Origin: Lysobacterales bacterium
Lineage (GTDB): Bacteria; Pseudomonadota; Gammaproteobacteria; Xanthomonadales; Rhodanobacteraceae
Reading direction: 5' to 3'
Length of the DNA stretch: 43,901 bases
Assembly (NCBI GenBank): GCA_017305055.1
Contig: JAFKMZ010000028.1
Location: 1-43,901, forward strand
Every line of letters starts with the position of its first letter. The stretch's first letter is position 1. Below the pieces are notes generated by a model. That model ran no database searches. It was not told the DNA's origin and saw nothing but the letters and a program-made list of their open reading frames with translations. Below, piece by piece: positions 38,979-43,901 of this stretch. A program made the position numbers and the translations under genes.

Positions 38979-41237
38979 TCAGTCCTGGGCTGGCGATGAC
39001 GCCGGTGGTTGAGGCGCGCGCAGATAGCGCTCGAAATAGTCGACCAGCCTGTGGTAGCCGTAGCGCGTCTGTGCCATGCCTTGCGTATCCCAGCTGTGCG
39101 GGGCATTGGGCAGGGGCACCAGGTCCACGTTCCCGCCCTGCAGGATCAGGCGCTGGGTCAATGTCACCGAGTCCTTGAACAGCACGACCTCGTCGCGCAT
39201 GCCGTGCAGCAGCATCAGGTGGCCCTTGAGGCCGCCGGAGTGCATGAACGCCGAGGACTTGGCGTACTGCGCCTCGTGGCCCTGCGGCATCATCATCACC
39301 TGCATCTCGCCGGTGAGGGCGTGGAACAGGCTGGTGGCGGGCGCCGCGGCCACGCCGGCCCGGTAGACGTCCGGATAGCGGAACATCGACATGGCGGTCA
39401 GCAGGCCGCCGTAGCTGCTGCCCCAGATGCCGATGCGCGAGGGGTCGACGTAGCCCTGCGCGACCAGCCAGCGCGTGGCGCTGTACAGGTCGTCGACATC
39501 GACGCCGCCGTAGTCCTCGCGGATGCGCTGGCGGAACGCCTTGCCATGCCCGGAGCTGCCGCTGATGTCCACGTTGATGACCACGAAGCCGCGCTGGGCC
39601 AGCAATTGGTCCAGGCCCCAGGTCGGGTGGTAGACGCGCCCGCCCCACTCGTTGTGCACGGTGTTGCTGTACACCGAGCCCAGGATCGCCGGGTACTTCT
39701 TCGCCGGGTCGAAGTCCGGCGGCAGGGTCAGCCGCGCGTGCAGCGGGGTGCCGTCGTTGACGTTGTTGAACCTGACGTACTTCGGCGCAACCCAGTGGTA
39801 CGCGGAGAATTCCGGCAAGGGTGAATGCGTGACCTGGCGACGATCCTTCGCCTTGGCTGCCGTGCCAGTGGCGGCCTGCAGGTACAGGTCTGGTGGCGTC
39901 ACGTCATTGGAATACAGGTCGGCGAGCAACTTTCCATCCGGCGACATCGTCGGATGATGCGCGCCTTCGGCCGGGGTCACCGGCTGCGCCGCACCGCCGC
40001 CGAGTGGCACGCGGTACACGCGGCGCGACTCCGTATTGCCGGCGTTGCTGACCACGAACAGCGCACGTGCCGCGGGTGAGATGCTGGCCGAGAACACCGC
40101 CCAGTCACCCGCGGTGATGGCCTTGGGCGCGCCACCGGCAAGCGCCTGGTAGTACACGTGGTAATCATTGCCGCGGTCGGAGGTAAAGTACACGCCGTAC
40201 CCGTCCGGCGCCCAGTCGGCCCACCACTCGGCGCTGACGTTGTGTGGGTCGCGCTCGCGCACCAGCAACTGCGACTTTCCGTTGGCGGGGTCGAGCAGCA
40301 GCAGGCGGCGGTCCTTGACGTACAGGTCGCTCTTGTCCGTCAGCAGCCGGCTGTCGTCCGGAGACCAGCGTACGCTGAAGATCTGGTCCAGCGGATCGGG
40401 GCCGAGGTCCATCCAGCGCACCGCGCCGCCGCTGGCGGCAACCACGCCCAGGCGCCGTGACGGCGAGGGCTCGCCCGGATACGGACGCTCGACCTCGACC
40501 AGTCGCGTCTCCGCACCCAGGTAATCCGGGATGCCGCGCATCGGCACCTTGCTGTTGTCGGCCTCGATCACGGCCAGCTGCTTGCCGTCGTGCGACCAGG
40601 CGAAGGACTCGACGCCGACCCTGCTGCCGCCTGCGGCGTAGACCTGACGCGGCTGCGGCGTGTCCGTGCCAAGCTCCACCATCCACAGGCTGCCGGACGC
40701 CAGATAGGCAACGGCCTTGGCCCGGGCGGAGGCGGCCGGGTCGGCGGCGGCGCTGCCGGCCTCGCTTATCGGCTGCGCCGGCTGCCCCGGCAGGACCCGG
40801 TACAGGCGCCCATGCAGGTTGAACACCAGGTGCCGGCCATCCGGCGCCCAGATCACTTGCGAGACGCCATGGTCATTCTCGGCGCGCTCGACCTGTTCCA
40901 GCTTGGCGATGTCGCTGCCCGGATCGGCCGGGCTATCCGGGCGCGGCATGCGCGTCACCCGTACCGGCTTGCCGTTTGCGGCATCGGCCACCCAGACGTC
41001 CATGAAATTGCCGCCCTCGTCGTTCCACAGGAACGCCAGGCGCCTGCTGTCCGGCGACCACGCCGGGTCCGTGGGGGCAGTGCCGGTGACCCAGGGCAGG
41101 CTGTACAGCCGGTCGATGGTCATCGTTCGCGGCGCTGGGGCGGCGGTTGTGGCCTGGTCGCCGGCACTTGCCGGCCACGCCAGCAGGAGACCGCACAGCG
41201 CCACGCAGCCCAGCGACAATCGGTACAGGGAGTTCAT
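38979..41237 (-). CDS. Exported S9 family dipeptidyl-peptidase-like serine peptidase
   Basis: A 752-residue protein with a Sec signal peptide (LGCVALCGLLLAWPASAG), a long beta-propeller (repeated W-PD-R-L blocks, about 50-500) and a C-terminal alpha/beta hydrolase. The catalytic triad is Ser608 in GSSYGG, Asp682 in HGMRDEVV and His714 in APHSWD, the arrangement of DPP4-like enzymes. It is distinct in sequence from the S9 peptidase at 20937-22994. It should trim dipeptides or short peptides in the periplasm. The gene converges with the peroxiredoxin gene; the 122-base gap (38857-38978) holds nothing evident. Confidence 0.92.
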   Translation of the reverse strand: MNSLYRLSLGCVALCGLLLAWPASAGDQATTAAPAPRTMTIDRLYSLPWVTGTAPTDPAWSPDSRRLAFLWNDEGGNFMDVWVADAANGKPVRVTRMPRPDSPADPGSDIAKLEQVERAENDHGVSQVIWAPDGRHLVFNLHGRLYRVLPGQPAQPISEAGSAAADPAASARAKAVAYLASGSLWMVELGTDTPQPRQVYAAGGSRVGVESFAWSHDGKQLAVIEADNSKVPMRGIPDYLGAETRLVEVERPYPGEPSPSRRLGVVAASGGAVRWMDLGPDPLDQIFSVRWSPDDSRLLTDKSDLYVKDRRLLLLDPANGKSQLLVRERDPHNVSAEWWADWAPDGYGVYFTSDRGNDYHVYYQALAGGAPKAITAGDWAVFSASISPAARALFVVSNAGNTESRRVYRVPLGGGAAQPVTPAEGAHHPTMSPDGKLLADLYSNDVTPPDLYLQAATGTAAKAKDRRQVTHSPLPEFSAYHWVAPKYVRFNNVNDGTPLHARLTLPPDFDPAKKYPAILGSVYSNTVHNEWGGRVYHPTWGLDQLLAQRGFVVINVDISGSSGHGKAFRQRIREDYGGVDVDDLYSATRWLVAQGYVDPSRIGIWGSSYGGLLTAMSMFRYPDVYRAGVAAAPATSLFHALTGEMQVMMMPQGHEAQYAKSSAFMHSGGLKGHLMLLHGMRDEVVLFKDSVTLTQRLILQGGNVDLVPLPNAPHSWDTQGMAQTRYGYHRLVDYFERYLRAPQPPASSPAQD

Positions 41238-41596
41238 GATGCAGGTGGGTCCGGTTGATGGGACAGCAGAAGTTGTCAGGCGCGGGCTGCGCCGTCAAGC
41301 CTCATCGCGGGGGGCGGAGCCGGCGGTGCGGAGTGCCAAGACAGGGCGCTGGGCGTGGCCTGCGAGCGGTTGCCGCGAGGCGCTTGACCACGTAGGCGCG
41401 CAGCGTAGACTCGGTGCGTCGATGGCAGTTTTCTGCGCCACCCGGTGGACGGTCACGGGTTCCGGCGCACACCAGGCGGGATGCTTCGGTCACCACGCTG
41501 TTCGCGCATTGCGCTACGCATGCCGGTGGAGGCTTTCATCGCGACGGACGCCAGTTGAGCTGCATACGCCGCCACAAGGTTGGATCGGAGCTCGCC
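41238..41596. other. Intergenic region with promoter and long leader
   Basis: This 359-base gap lies between two divergent genes. It contains one good promoter (41384-41411) for the rightward gene, leaving an untranslated leader of about 180 bases. The frame of the downstream protein is open through the leader from 41414, but that part resembles non-coding sequence. I see no promoter that I trust for the leftward peptidase gene and no riboswitch. Confidence 0.5.
41384..41411 (+). promoter_or_regulatory. Sigma-70-type promoter upstream of the DUF4157 gene
   Basis: TTGACC (41384-41389), a 16-base spacer and TAGACT (41406-41411) form the best promoter match in the window. Transcription would start near 41418, about 180 bases before the chosen ATG at 41597. 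Confidence 0.55.
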
Positions 41597-43702
41597 ATGA
41601 CTACTGAATCGACATGCGTGCACGCGCAGCGTCGGCATCCGCAGCAGATGGTTGCCGTCACGCCGGTGCGGCAGCGTCATGTGCTTCCGCGCGATGAGCC
41701 GGATCGGTGCGCGCGCTCGGTGCTTCCTGGCGCGTTCGCGCACATCCCGGTATGGCCGTCGGAAGAGCCTGGGCATGCACCCGCCAGCGCTCACTCCCAG
41801 TACCTTCCGTTGCAGCGCAAGCTCGCTGTCGGCTTGGCAAACGATCCGCTCGAGGCGCAGGCCGATGTGCTGGCCGAGCAGGCGCTGCGCGGCGGAGTAT
41901 CCATGCGGACCGCTGCGGAGGCGCCGGCTTTGCGCCGCACAGGGACCACGCGCGTCGCCCCGGTGGAAGCGCCACCCCTGGTGCATACCGTGCTGGGTAC
42001 TGCCGGTGTGCCATTGGATGCGGAGGCGCGGGCGTTCATGGAGCCACGCTTTGGCCGCGATTTCGGCGCGGTGCGCATCCACACCGATCATCAGGCTGCC
42101 GCGTCGGCACGCGTCATCGGTGCTTCCGCCTACACCGTCGGCCAGCACATCGTCTTTGCCGCAGGGTCGTACACCCCGGGTACGGATGATGGCAAAAGGC
42201 TACTGGCGCATGAGTTGGCGCATACCCTGCAGCAGGATGCCGGCACCGCCGCGGCTCGGCGCGACGTCGTGCGCTGTCGCCGCGTACCGAATGCAACCAC
42301 CCTGGCCGCGACGCTGCCAGCCGGAGGCACCGACCTGGCCGCGCACGAAGCCGGCCTGGTGCGGCTGCTGCACAGCGCGTGGCGCGAACTCACTCCCGCC
42401 AATCGACTGAAGGTGCGCACTGATGCGGCTGCGTTCGGGATTGCCGGACCCACCGAGGCCATCTTGTTTGCGGCACTCGCGGCGGGCTCGCGCGATCAGA
42501 TCCTGCAATTCGCGCAGGCGATGCGGGCCGCCGATCCGAGCGTGACGCTGGGTGATCCGCGCCTGATCGATATCGGTGCGCGGCCGGCGACCCCCGATAC
42601 CGCCAATATTGCCAAGCTGGTGCAGGGCGCCGACAAGATCTTCGACGCCGTCGCCTCGGGGGCGAGAAACACCGACCTGAGCGATATTTTCGGCCCGTCG
42701 CACGTGGCTGCGGCGCGCGCCAAGTTTGCTCGCGGCCGCGCCGCCATGCACCGCCTGCAGACCGCGAGGAAAATCGTGACCGACCGCTCGGGCTACAACG
42801 AGGAGGTGGAGCTTGGCGGCCTGACCAATTCAAGCCAAATCGCGCTCGCGTCGAGCAACATCGACAATCCGACACAGGCGGACTCCATCTCCACCATGGT
42901 GCATGAAAGCATGCATGCGGGTAACGCCAGCGTGACCGATCTGGGGTACATCGGCAGCAATTCGTTCACCGAAATGACCGCGGCAGACAAGCTGGACAAC
43001 GCCGCCGATTATGAGGTGATCGCAAACCGCATCCTGACCCCGACCGCGGCGGCCGCATTCCCCGGCAAGAAGTTTGTTCCGGCCGGGACCACGGTGGGTG
43101 CGGTCACACGACCAGCACTCACCCAGCGCCAGTCGGCGATGCGTCAGGCATCGGAGGCCTATCGCGGAGCATGGACGACTGGGCTCAACCTGCACACCCT
43201 GTTCGTGCGCGAGTACACGCACCCGGCCGAGTGGAACACGCTGGACCTGCACGCGGAATTTGGCGTGGCCGCAGGAACCCACTTTGCCGACTCGCTGCCG
43301 TACTGGTCGAAAGTCGAGAACATGACGATTCACCAGCGGCCTGGAATCAACGCCGCAGCTGGCGCGGCGCCGACCAGCCCGGTGACGCAGATCGACATCG
43401 CCCAATCCGAAGGCGTCATTCGCAAGCTCGCACAGGGCATGGATGTGGCGACGATGACAGAACCGGCGGCGATCCTCCTGGAATCCAAGGCCAGTGCGGC
43501 GCAGAAAACCGAAATGGCCAAGGGAGCGGTCGAGGAAGGCAAGGTGCTGGTTTCGCTTATCCGCAGCGAGAAGGTTGGTGAGATCACCGGCCGGGTGGAG
43601 CGCGACGAACGGGTCATTGCGCGCCTTGTCCAGGCGGACAAGGCCGCGAACTTCTTTGATGATGTGTTGGCGCCCAAGAGCCCCTCGACCTTTGCCAACT
43701 GA
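41597..43702 (+). CDS. eCIS-core (DUF4157) protein with second, aspzincin-like metallopeptidase domain
   Basis: A 701-residue protein without signal peptide. Residues about 70-215 are the DUF4157/eCIS-core domain: LPLQRKLAVGLANDPLEAQA, FMEPRFGRDFGAVRIHTD, SAYTVGQHIVFAAGSYTPGT and the zinc site HELAHTLQQ (205-213). This domain occurs in cargo and toxins of extracellular contractile injection systems. A second peptidase-like site lies in the C-terminal half: HESMH at 436-440, TDLGY at 447-451 and NAADYEVIAN at 468-477. This matches the HExxH, GTxDxxY and N-AD-YExxA-N pattern of aspzincins (M35, Lys-specific type). The long linker and the last 150 helical residues are unassigned. The start is uncertain. 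An effector role is inference; no injection-system genes are in view. An ankyrin-like gene follows 21 bases later. Confidence 0.82.
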   Translation: MTTESTCVHAQRRHPQQMVAVTPVRQRHVLPRDEPDRCARSVLPGAFAHIPVWPSEEPGHAPASAHSQYLPLQRKLAVGLANDPLEAQADVLAEQALRGGVSMRTAAEAPALRRTGTTRVAPVEAPPLVHTVLGTAGVPLDAEARAFMEPRFGRDFGAVRIHTDHQAAASARVIGASAYTVGQHIVFAAGSYTPGTDDGKRLLAHELAHTLQQDAGTAAARRDVVRCRRVPNATTLAATLPAGGTDLAAHEAGLVRLLHSAWRELTPANRLKVRTDAAAFGIAGPTEAILFAALAAGSRDQILQFAQAMRAADPSVTLGDPRLIDIGARPATPDTANIAKLVQGADKIFDAVASGARNTDLSDIFGPSHVAAARAKFARGRAAMHRLQTARKIVTDRSGYNEEVELGGLTNSSQIALASSNIDNPTQADSISTMVHESMHAGNASVTDLGYIGSNSFTEMTAADKLDNAADYEVIANRILTPTAAAAFPGKKFVPAGTTVGAVTRPALTQRQSAMRQASEAYRGAWTTGLNLHTLFVREYTHPAEWNTLDLHAEFGVAAGTHFADSLPYWSKVENMTIHQRPGINAAAGAAPTSPVTQIDIAQSEGVIRKLAQGMDVATMTEPAAILLESKASAAQKTEMAKGAVEEGKVLVSLIRSEKVGEITGRVERDERVIARLVQADKAANFFDDVLAPKSPSTFAN

Positions 43703-43723: not shown

Positions 43724-43901
43724 ATGACCGGTTCGACCGGGTTGCCAGAGCAGCTTTGCCGGCTGATCGCCACCGGCGATGTGCCGGCCGTGGAGGCGAT
43801 GCTGCGTGACAGGCGCGTGCAGGTGCCGGCGTTCGACATCAACCAGGCCTGCGACCCGAACGCGCAGGTGCCGGTGTCGCCGTTGGCGCTGGCCCTGGCC
43901 A
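43724..43901 (+). CDS. Ankyrin-repeat-like protein, 5' part only
   Basis: The window ends after 59 codons. The visible part (LPEQLCRLIATGDVPAVEAM, LRDRRV, then INQACDPNAQVPVSPLALAL) has the spacing of an ankyrin repeat pair: a GD-xx-V-AMLRD helix, then a loop ending in SPLALA. It starts 21 bases after the DUF4157 gene in the same direction, so the two are likely co-transcribed. A role as a protective or partner protein for its neighbour is possible but speculative. Confidence 0.5.
   Translation, partial: MTGSTGLPEQLCRLIATGDVPAVEAMLRDRRVQVPAFDINQACDPNAQVPVSPLALALA

Follow-up and report, generated by a model that had tools for sequence, protein, structure and literature searches.

A two-domain protein with an eCIS-core domain and a divergent aspzincin-like domain, encoded beside an ankyrin-repeat gene in a Lysobacterales bacterium

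One end of a contig from a Lysobacterales bacterium of the Rhodanobacteraceae encodes a protein with two separate HExxH motifs, and the question arises what such a protein does and by which route it might leave the cell. The stretch analyzed, called the window here, is the whole contig C97 with a length of 43,901 bases, and the gene in question stops 199 bases short of its end. An earlier note, made from the sequence, had described a DUF4157 domain, known from cargo of extracellular contractile injection systems (eCIS), in front of an aspzincin-like domain, and had interpreted the protein as a two-part effector. The open reading frame (ORF), the residue numbers, and the motifs HELAHTLQQ (residues 205-213), HESMH (436-440), TDLGY (447-451), and NAADYEVIAN (468-477) were all confirmed. 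In our view, the protein is probably eCIS cargo, in which the DUF4157 half would serve for loading and the aspzincin-like half would be a protease, with an ankyrin-repeat protein as partner. The gene and its main parts, with 1g12 denoting a structure of an aspzincin of peptidase family M35, are:

41597..43702, plus strand: two-domain protein of 701 residues, with an eCIS_core/DUF4157 domain and a C-terminal aspzincin-like domain
42011..42244, plus strand: eCIS_core/DUF4157 domain, residues 139-216, with HELAH at 205-209
42674..43204, plus strand: predicted aspzincin-like catalytic domain, residues 360-536
42902..42916, plus strand: HESMH, residues 436-440, with two putative zinc-ligand histidines and the putative catalytic glutamate
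42938..42949, plus strand: Asp448 and Tyr451, putative third zinc ligand and proton donor, aligned with D130 and Y133 of 1g12
42998..43015, plus strand: NAADYE, residues 468-473, equivalent of the NADNxE segment of M35, with the invariant Ala470 at the position of D154 of 1g12
43205..43699, plus strand: C-terminal extension, residues 537-701, with conserved lysine, aspartate, and glutamate positions and no family above cut-off

An in-frame GTG at position 41414 lies upstream of the ATG and would lengthen the protein by 61 residues if used; in the alignment of the window protein with its relatives, the starts of the relatives line up near the ATG at 41597.

A Pfam scan of the 701-residue protein yielded a sole family above cut-off, eCIS_core (PF13699; residues 139-216, 108 bits with a cut-off of 22, E=2.7e-31). 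As had been claimed, HELAHTLQQ lies within a full match to this domain, and the HELAH is intact. The domain, above its curated cut-off, stands N-terminal to a variable domain, which is the arrangement that serves to recognize eCIS cargo. For the region around HESMH, the scan of the window protein found no family above cut-off.

The second site was characterized by comparison with relatives. When the whole protein was used as query, 41 of 197 genomes of the host's bacterial family matched, nearly all of them via the DUF4157 part. The C-terminal family is rare. It was detected in three of 233 host-family genomes with a profile (A2) of the window protein and four relatives (24, 25, 38, and 46% identical to it), in four of 369 genomes of the class with a single-sequence search, and among 398 genomes of the phylum in the own genome only; the own genome is part of each of these overlapping sets. 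In total, there are six known carriers: the own genome, G049, G277, G402, G324, and G040. The copy in G402 is broken off by a contig end ahead of the second site, and the copy in G040 has no DUF4157 match. In the bacterial family of G277, profile A2 found one of six genomes, G277 itself, while G402, cut before the site, gave no match. Four of the five aligned members contain eCIS_core, and all five share H436, E437, H440, N443, D448, Y451, F457, K465, N468, A470, E473, and R478. With these residues invariant in the window protein and in four relatives that are 24–46% identical to it, the second site is, judged by conservation, above chance. The pattern of the window family is D..Y with N(A/S)A(D/H)(Y/F)E, followed by a C-terminal extension of 165 residues.

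No relative was detected among viral contigs and phages, and a search of further genome contigs gave one match, to the DUF4157 part only. The C-terminal half had two matches in Klebsiella (E 0.6–0.8). All four of its matches to Streptomyces plasmids (E 0.1–0.5) were dropped; the one that was opened overlies frames on the opposite strand whose translations look like ordinary enzymes. As separate observations, the relative in G277 (L041:8078-10351) has a LysM domain (PF01476, 26.5 bits, residues 593-635) inserted in the C-terminal extension, and an ORF that is related to the catalytic domain but lacks a DUF4157 match (L040:7649-9241) lies near a repeat-rich, autotransporter-like ORF of 2183 residues.

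Several comparisons indicate that the C-terminal domain is very likely a divergent relative of the aspzincins. With phmmer, the window protein had a sole match in the Protein Data Bank (PDB), neutral protease II (1eb6; E=0.32, residues 429-479). Profile A2, which comprises five sequences, had peptidyl-Lys metalloendopeptidase (1g12) as its top PDB match (E=0.0082), followed by two replication-protein matches near E=1. In this alignment, HESSH (H117/H121), D130, and Y133 of 1g12 lie opposite HESMH, D448, and Y451. An HExxH followed by an Asp and a Tyr three residues on is found invariantly in the five sequences, and the Asp would be a zinc ligand by analogy: in M35, the Asp of the GTXDXXYG motif is the third ligand (PMC7215534, which also describes the fungal members as secreted), and the Tyr three residues after it is the proton donor (PMC11985622). 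The earlier note had proposed searches with PF13699, which gave the match above cut-off reported above, and with the aspzincin family PF14521. The latter matched two relatives below the gathering cut-off of 30 bits, G324 (24.4 bits, E=4.4e-5, profile positions 26-138 of 142) and G040 (20.0 bits, E=1e-3). By the curated rule, the C-terminal domain is not a member of PF14521.

Profile-profile comparison with hhalign gave 63% (E=6.9e-5) for A2 versus 14 canonical M35 domains and 84% (E=7.4e-6) versus six M35 domains fused to DUF4157. The positive control, canonical versus fused M35, reached 98.9%; the negative controls were 2.2% for A2 versus DUF4157, itself an HExxH domain, and 10% for M35 versus DUF4157. 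The canonical set (A3) consists of those 14 of 30 loci whose site was recovered, and the fused set (A4) of six of the seven fused ORFs, the one in G029 being below cut-off. In addition, a profile of 20 aspzincin domains that includes no member of the window family was run on 2276 ORFs, of which 130 have an HExxH. It found the window protein with a whole-sequence E-value of 2.6e-5, which also counts a weak match at the HELAH site, and residues 424-477 alone with a domain-level E-value of 0.0041. The values for the relatives were 1.8e-5 (G040), 0.0028 (G324), 0.0054 (G277), and 0.25 (G049).

The domain could also be a different zincin, SprT-like or an uncharacterized metallopeptidase, that is aspzincin-like merely around the HExxH. 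Three of the five members indeed have weak matches to the SprT-like family PF10263 (best 6.7e-4, none above cut-off), but the D..Y and the N(A/S)A..E that follow the HExxH vary little or not at all and can be aligned with M35, PF14521 spans most of the domain in G324, and the profile-profile comparison favours aspzincins over the sole control compared, DUF4157. This alternative is therefore regarded as improbable, and the domain is treated as an aspzincin relative in the following. We take D154 of 1g12 to bind the substrate lysine; the window family has an Ala at this position, and therefore its substrate choice should differ from that of the Lys-specific relative.

Fusions of the two domains are not confined to the window family. 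At E-values up to 0.01, PF14521 was present in 55 of 230 host-family genomes, 51 of which had a match above cut-off. Six ORFs with checked frames combine a PF14521 match above cut-off with DUF4157 (G046, G106, G057, G091, G094, and G081), and in a seventh, in G029, PF14521 is below cut-off. A profile of the six fused ORFs found 1g12 in the PDB at 3.9e-11 and 2x3a, a toxic extracellular endopeptidase, at 1.4e-9. Presumably, 1g12 is GfMEP, 2x3a is AsaP1, and 1eb6 is deuterolysin. DUF4157-aspzincin fusions recur in the host's bacterial family, and this recurrence, with six ORFs in one family, suggests that aspzincin proteases are a regular eCIS payload and not a single case.

By which system could the protein be delivered? 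The earlier note had seen no injection-system genes in the window and had left the route open. A search of the rest of the genome found tube, sheath, and baseplate genes on contig C55, and this eCIS cluster, on another contig than the effector gene, is the likely delivery route. Pfam identified a tail tube protein (PF06841), Pvc16_N (PF14065), an AAA ATPase, Phage_base_V (PF04717), gp25 (PF04965), and DUF6519, and PHROGs added a tail sheath and a baseplate wedge. The one further DUF4157 gene of the genome is located at the end of this cluster. As a side observation, the sheath gene (L045:15591-17711) includes a stretch of unknown bases and lacks a Pfam match; its PHROGs matches include tail sheath. 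The eCIS marker Pvc16_N was present in all six carriers versus 28 of 97 host-family genomes (three carriers among them), which is support and not a test, as the carriers are not independent and do not all belong to one family. In G049, the eCIS operon is followed shortly by the effector gene, which has two further DUF4157 genes next to it. Of the eCIS-associated toxins (EATs), 88% are reported to lie no more than about ten genes away from the eCIS operon (PMC11297309). Such linkage exists in G049; in the own genome, the cluster is on C55 and the effector gene at the end of C97, and nothing was seen that links these two contigs. In the comparison of N-termini, no cognate was found: the match to the DUF4157 protein next to the own eCIS has 45% identity, several other genomes reach 47–48% over stretches of similar size, and one reaches 65% over a shorter stretch.

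Alternatively, the protein might be an effector of a type VI secretion system (T6SS), another secreted effector, or an orphan relic, and the eCIS of the genome would be coincidental. The location of the effector gene and the eCIS cluster on different contigs would fit, as would the M35 toxin domain on VgrG2b of a T6SS (PMC10673891) and the occasional presence of DUF4157 in T6SS effectors (PMC11297309). The distribution of Pvc16_N and the gene arrangement in G049 speak against it, and the effector frame is intact with conserved sites. Such an origin appears unlikely, and eCIS cargo remains the preferred interpretation.

As eCIS cargo, the protein would need its DUF4157 half for docking or for processing. 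In Streptomyces, one DUF4157 protein interacts with spike-complex proteins of a contractile injection system (CIS), and for a second one, co-elution with spike and tube-initiator proteins is described (PMC13277306; PMC11126660); the tube of AlgoCIS is filled by Cgo1 and Cgo2 (PMC8894135). Autoproteolytic release has been put forward as a proposal (PMC3482391), and the role of DUF4157 has been described as elusive (PMC11297309). Because the published findings are spike association and tube loading, whereas release is a proposal, docking is the favoured role, and processing its rival. Three short segments around the core bear on this choice:

41810..41821, plus strand: LQRK, residues 72-75, an example of the hydrophobic-Q-R motif
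41843..41875, plus strand: DPLEAQADVLA, residues 83-93, ExxAD segment upstream of the core
42275..42289, plus strand: CRRVP, residues 227-231, where the two halves meet, with Arg229 and Pro231 invariant in the five aligned sequences, the window protein included

When all residue pairs were scanned, QR after a hydrophobic residue was the most enriched pair flanking DUF4157 cores on both sides. The motif was present upstream of 25 of 38 cores (2.1 expected from shuffling) and downstream of 19 of 39 (2.2 expected), while the region 150-250 residues downstream contained it in 1 of 49 cases (1.7 expected). For 25 cores from loci outside the host family, the numbers were 10 upstream (about 2.7 expected) and 10 downstream (1.7 expected). 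The sequences are related, and hence these counts are not independent. The motif is a candidate processing or docking site.

Glu86 of DPLEAQADVLA is a candidate third zinc ligand of the DUF4157 site. In the DUF4157 ORFs of a first locus set, an ExxAD segment is found either 115-136 residues before the HExxH (once 73) or 24-29 residues after it. Among 39 of these, it was upstream only in 16 cases, downstream only in 11, on both sides in 1, and on neither in 11, and the two positions are thus nearly exclusive. With the identical regular expression, the 25 cores outside the family yielded just three upstream and none downstream in register. A looser expression gave, in the same order, 26, 6, 1, and 19 of 52 in the first set (Fisher p 0.046) and 4, 7, 1, and 6 of 18 outside the family (Fisher p 0.31). 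An alternation between upstream and downstream sources of the third ligand, with its mixed result outside the family, is a lead only. Apart from this, a second type of DUF4157 has HEAWH in place of HELAH (L041:11617-13290, L042:11098-12993, and L123-L139), and in eight HEAWH cores outside the family, an LExEADxxG segment follows about 30 residues later.

If the DUF4157 half were an active protease, it could free the C-terminal half at the conserved junction, and the second site might be secondary. The intact HELAH, the basic motif conserved at the junction, the hydrophobic-Q-R motifs around many cores, and the proposal of autoproteolysis (PMC3482391) are compatible with this idea. Yet the third DUF4157 ligand is uncertain in the window protein, and cleavage is not reported in the passages on spike association and tube loading considered here. 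We consider an active DUF4157 protease rather doubtful and favour docking.

The gene next to the effector offers a further clue:

43724..43901, plus strand: start of an ankyrin-repeat gene, 59 residues up to the contig end, candidate immunity or partner protein

This ORF starts 21 bases past the effector stop and leaves the contig after 59 residues. The fragment alone has no Pfam match; in a tblastn search over 16 sequences, it aligned with the N-terminal end of ankyrin proteins from G402 (E 1.0e-4) and G277 (E 3.5e-4). These two proteins are 68% identical to each other and have Ank_2 scores of 140 and 166 bits. Residues 55-375 of the G277 ankyrin protein matched the own genome at the very end of contig C21 (46% identity), and because of this match, the ends of C97 and C21 most likely carry one ankyrin gene, i.e., the two contigs would adjoin within it. 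The end piece on C21 is L100:17213-18187 (G000). On the other side of the effector gene, positions 38979-41237 on the minus strand encode an S9 prolyl oligopeptidase/DPP4-like peptidase, which is probably unrelated.

The effector and ankyrin genes are adjacent in three of the six carriers (the window, G277, and G402), which represent two bacterial families; the ankyrin gene immediately precedes the effector gene in G402 and G277 and follows it in the window. At E-values up to 1e-10, the ankyrin protein was found among 230 host-family genomes in the own genome only. Inspection by eye revealed no signal peptide in the ankyrin-repeat protein. It is a candidate immunity partner, for which Imm-ank (PMC3482391) and Tli of the Tle6 lipases (PMC11470151) are precedents. 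For most of the antibacterial eCIS toxins of PMC8213781, no adjacent immunity gene was identifiable according to that study. The ankyrin protein might also be a co-effector, an adaptor, or an unrelated neighbour, and the pair might act on eukaryotic cells. A co-effector role is conceivable because the antibacterial eCIS toxin EAT2 itself carries ankyrin repeats (PMC8213781); furthermore, such repeats are general binding modules, and a close homologue is absent from half of the carriers. Conversely, the occurrence beside the effector in two bacterial families and in opposite order suggests a functional pair, and the gene is as rare as the effector. These other roles are possible, though less probable than an immunity partner.

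A number of points weigh against the interpretation as eCIS cargo with an aspzincin-like protease. PF14521 has no match in the window protein, in G277, or in G049, and no relative reaches its cut-off. The two-part reading of the earlier note is supported by the family comparisons and by the eCIS cluster in the same genome, with a second domain that is divergent. The spacing on which that note had relied holds for the window protein itself (Asp eight residues after the second His, Tyr three further), but the distance from His to Asp is nine in 1g12, and the GTXDXXYG motif of M35 is cut down to D..Y (SVTDLGYI). Taken singly, the methods give modest E-values that depend on the family: with a profile of canonical M35 alone, the window protein scored 0.062, and the 20-domain profile gave 0.0012 and 0.0017 for two DUF4157 ORFs that do not belong to the family. 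The effector and Pvc16_N genes are on different contigs in the own genome, G277, G402, G040, and G324, and the case for a route in trans is circumstantial. G049, G040, and G324 lack a close ankyrin homologue. Lastly, Cgo1, which is an eCIS cargo, inhibits the growth of E. coli independently of both its HExxH motifs (PMC8894135).

In the interpretation as eCIS cargo, the N-terminal part (the tail, the segment from LQRK to DPLExxAD, and the DUF4157 core) would dock the protein to the spike and baseplate of the C55 particle, and it may be involved in processing as well. Upon firing of the particle, the protein would be carried into a target cell. There, the C-terminal domain would act as a zinc endopeptidase, with His436, His440, and Asp448 holding the zinc, Glu437 as base, and Tyr451 as proton donor. 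The neighbouring ankyrin-repeat protein would most likely bind the protease and shield the producer. The sequence data show the domain content, the conservation within the family, the relationship to aspzincins, the presence of an eCIS in the own genome, and the adjacency of the ankyrin gene in three genomes. Toxicity, loading, and processing are suggested by precedents, and injection, proteolysis, target, and immunity are likewise proposed. A more far-reaching version would be an unlinked eCIS effector-immunity cassette, with an aspzincin of altered specificity, a dedicated ankyrin inhibitor, and a DUF4157 carrier that has its third-ligand helix shifted to a place before the HExxH and that cuts or docks at the flanking hydrophobic-Q-R sites. 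This version seems unlikely; if true, eCIS toxins would gain the logic of mobile cassettes, and DUF4157 would gain a testable site of action. DUF4157 marks eCIS cargo, and a small effector-ankyrin pair away from the particle genes would offer a simple test of the role of DUF4157 and of immunity.

The DUF4157-aspzincin fusion as such is already known from EAT4 and the host-family fusions; in the open-access literature searched, as far as its text was covered, neither this subfamily nor its pairing with an ankyrin protein was found described. The M35 aspzincins 1g12, 1eb6, and 2x3a share with the window domain the HExxH, the Asp that would be the third ligand there, and the Tyr three residues on. 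They differ from it by the full GTXDXXYG motif, 1g12 also by D154 in place of the invariant Ala, and aspzincins of this type are stand-alone enzymes. In the host-family fusions (L083-L088), as in the window protein, a single ORF encodes DUF4157 and, C-terminal to it, an aspzincin. Both GTxDxxY and NADSY are retained in two of these six ORFs, in contrast to the pattern and the 165-residue extension of the window family. EAT4 of Mucilaginibacter sp. OK098 is an eCIS toxin that was predicted to be a peptidyl-Lys metalloendopeptidase and was active against E. coli and not against yeast (PMC8213781, Table 1). Compared by description only, it resembles the window protein as an eCIS-associated protein with an internal DUF4157 and an M35-type prediction, but it is from Bacteroidetes, has its DUF4157 in the protein centre, and is described there with no immunity partner named.

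Several metallopeptidase toxins, some of them behind PVC-metallopeptidase, are described in PMC3482391; the words deuterolysin and aspzincin are not used in the parts of that article considered here. Cgo1 of AlgoCIS (PMC8894135), a tube cargo, also combines DUF4157 with a second HExxH in a C-terminal domain, a likeness in motif layout, with the C-terminal families not compared; unlike the activity proposed here, its toxicity is independent of both motifs. VgrG2b of the Pseudomonas aeruginosa T6SS (PMC10673891) likewise links an M35-annotated toxin domain to a contractile machine and an immunity gene, but its toxin domain is on the spike protein, no DUF4157 is stated in the text considered, and the immunity gene is a different one. 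Tle6/Tli (PMC11470151) differs in that Tle6 is a T6SS lipase, and it provides the parallel for the gene pair: the effector gene neighbours that of an ankyrin-repeat protein, which cups around the effector.

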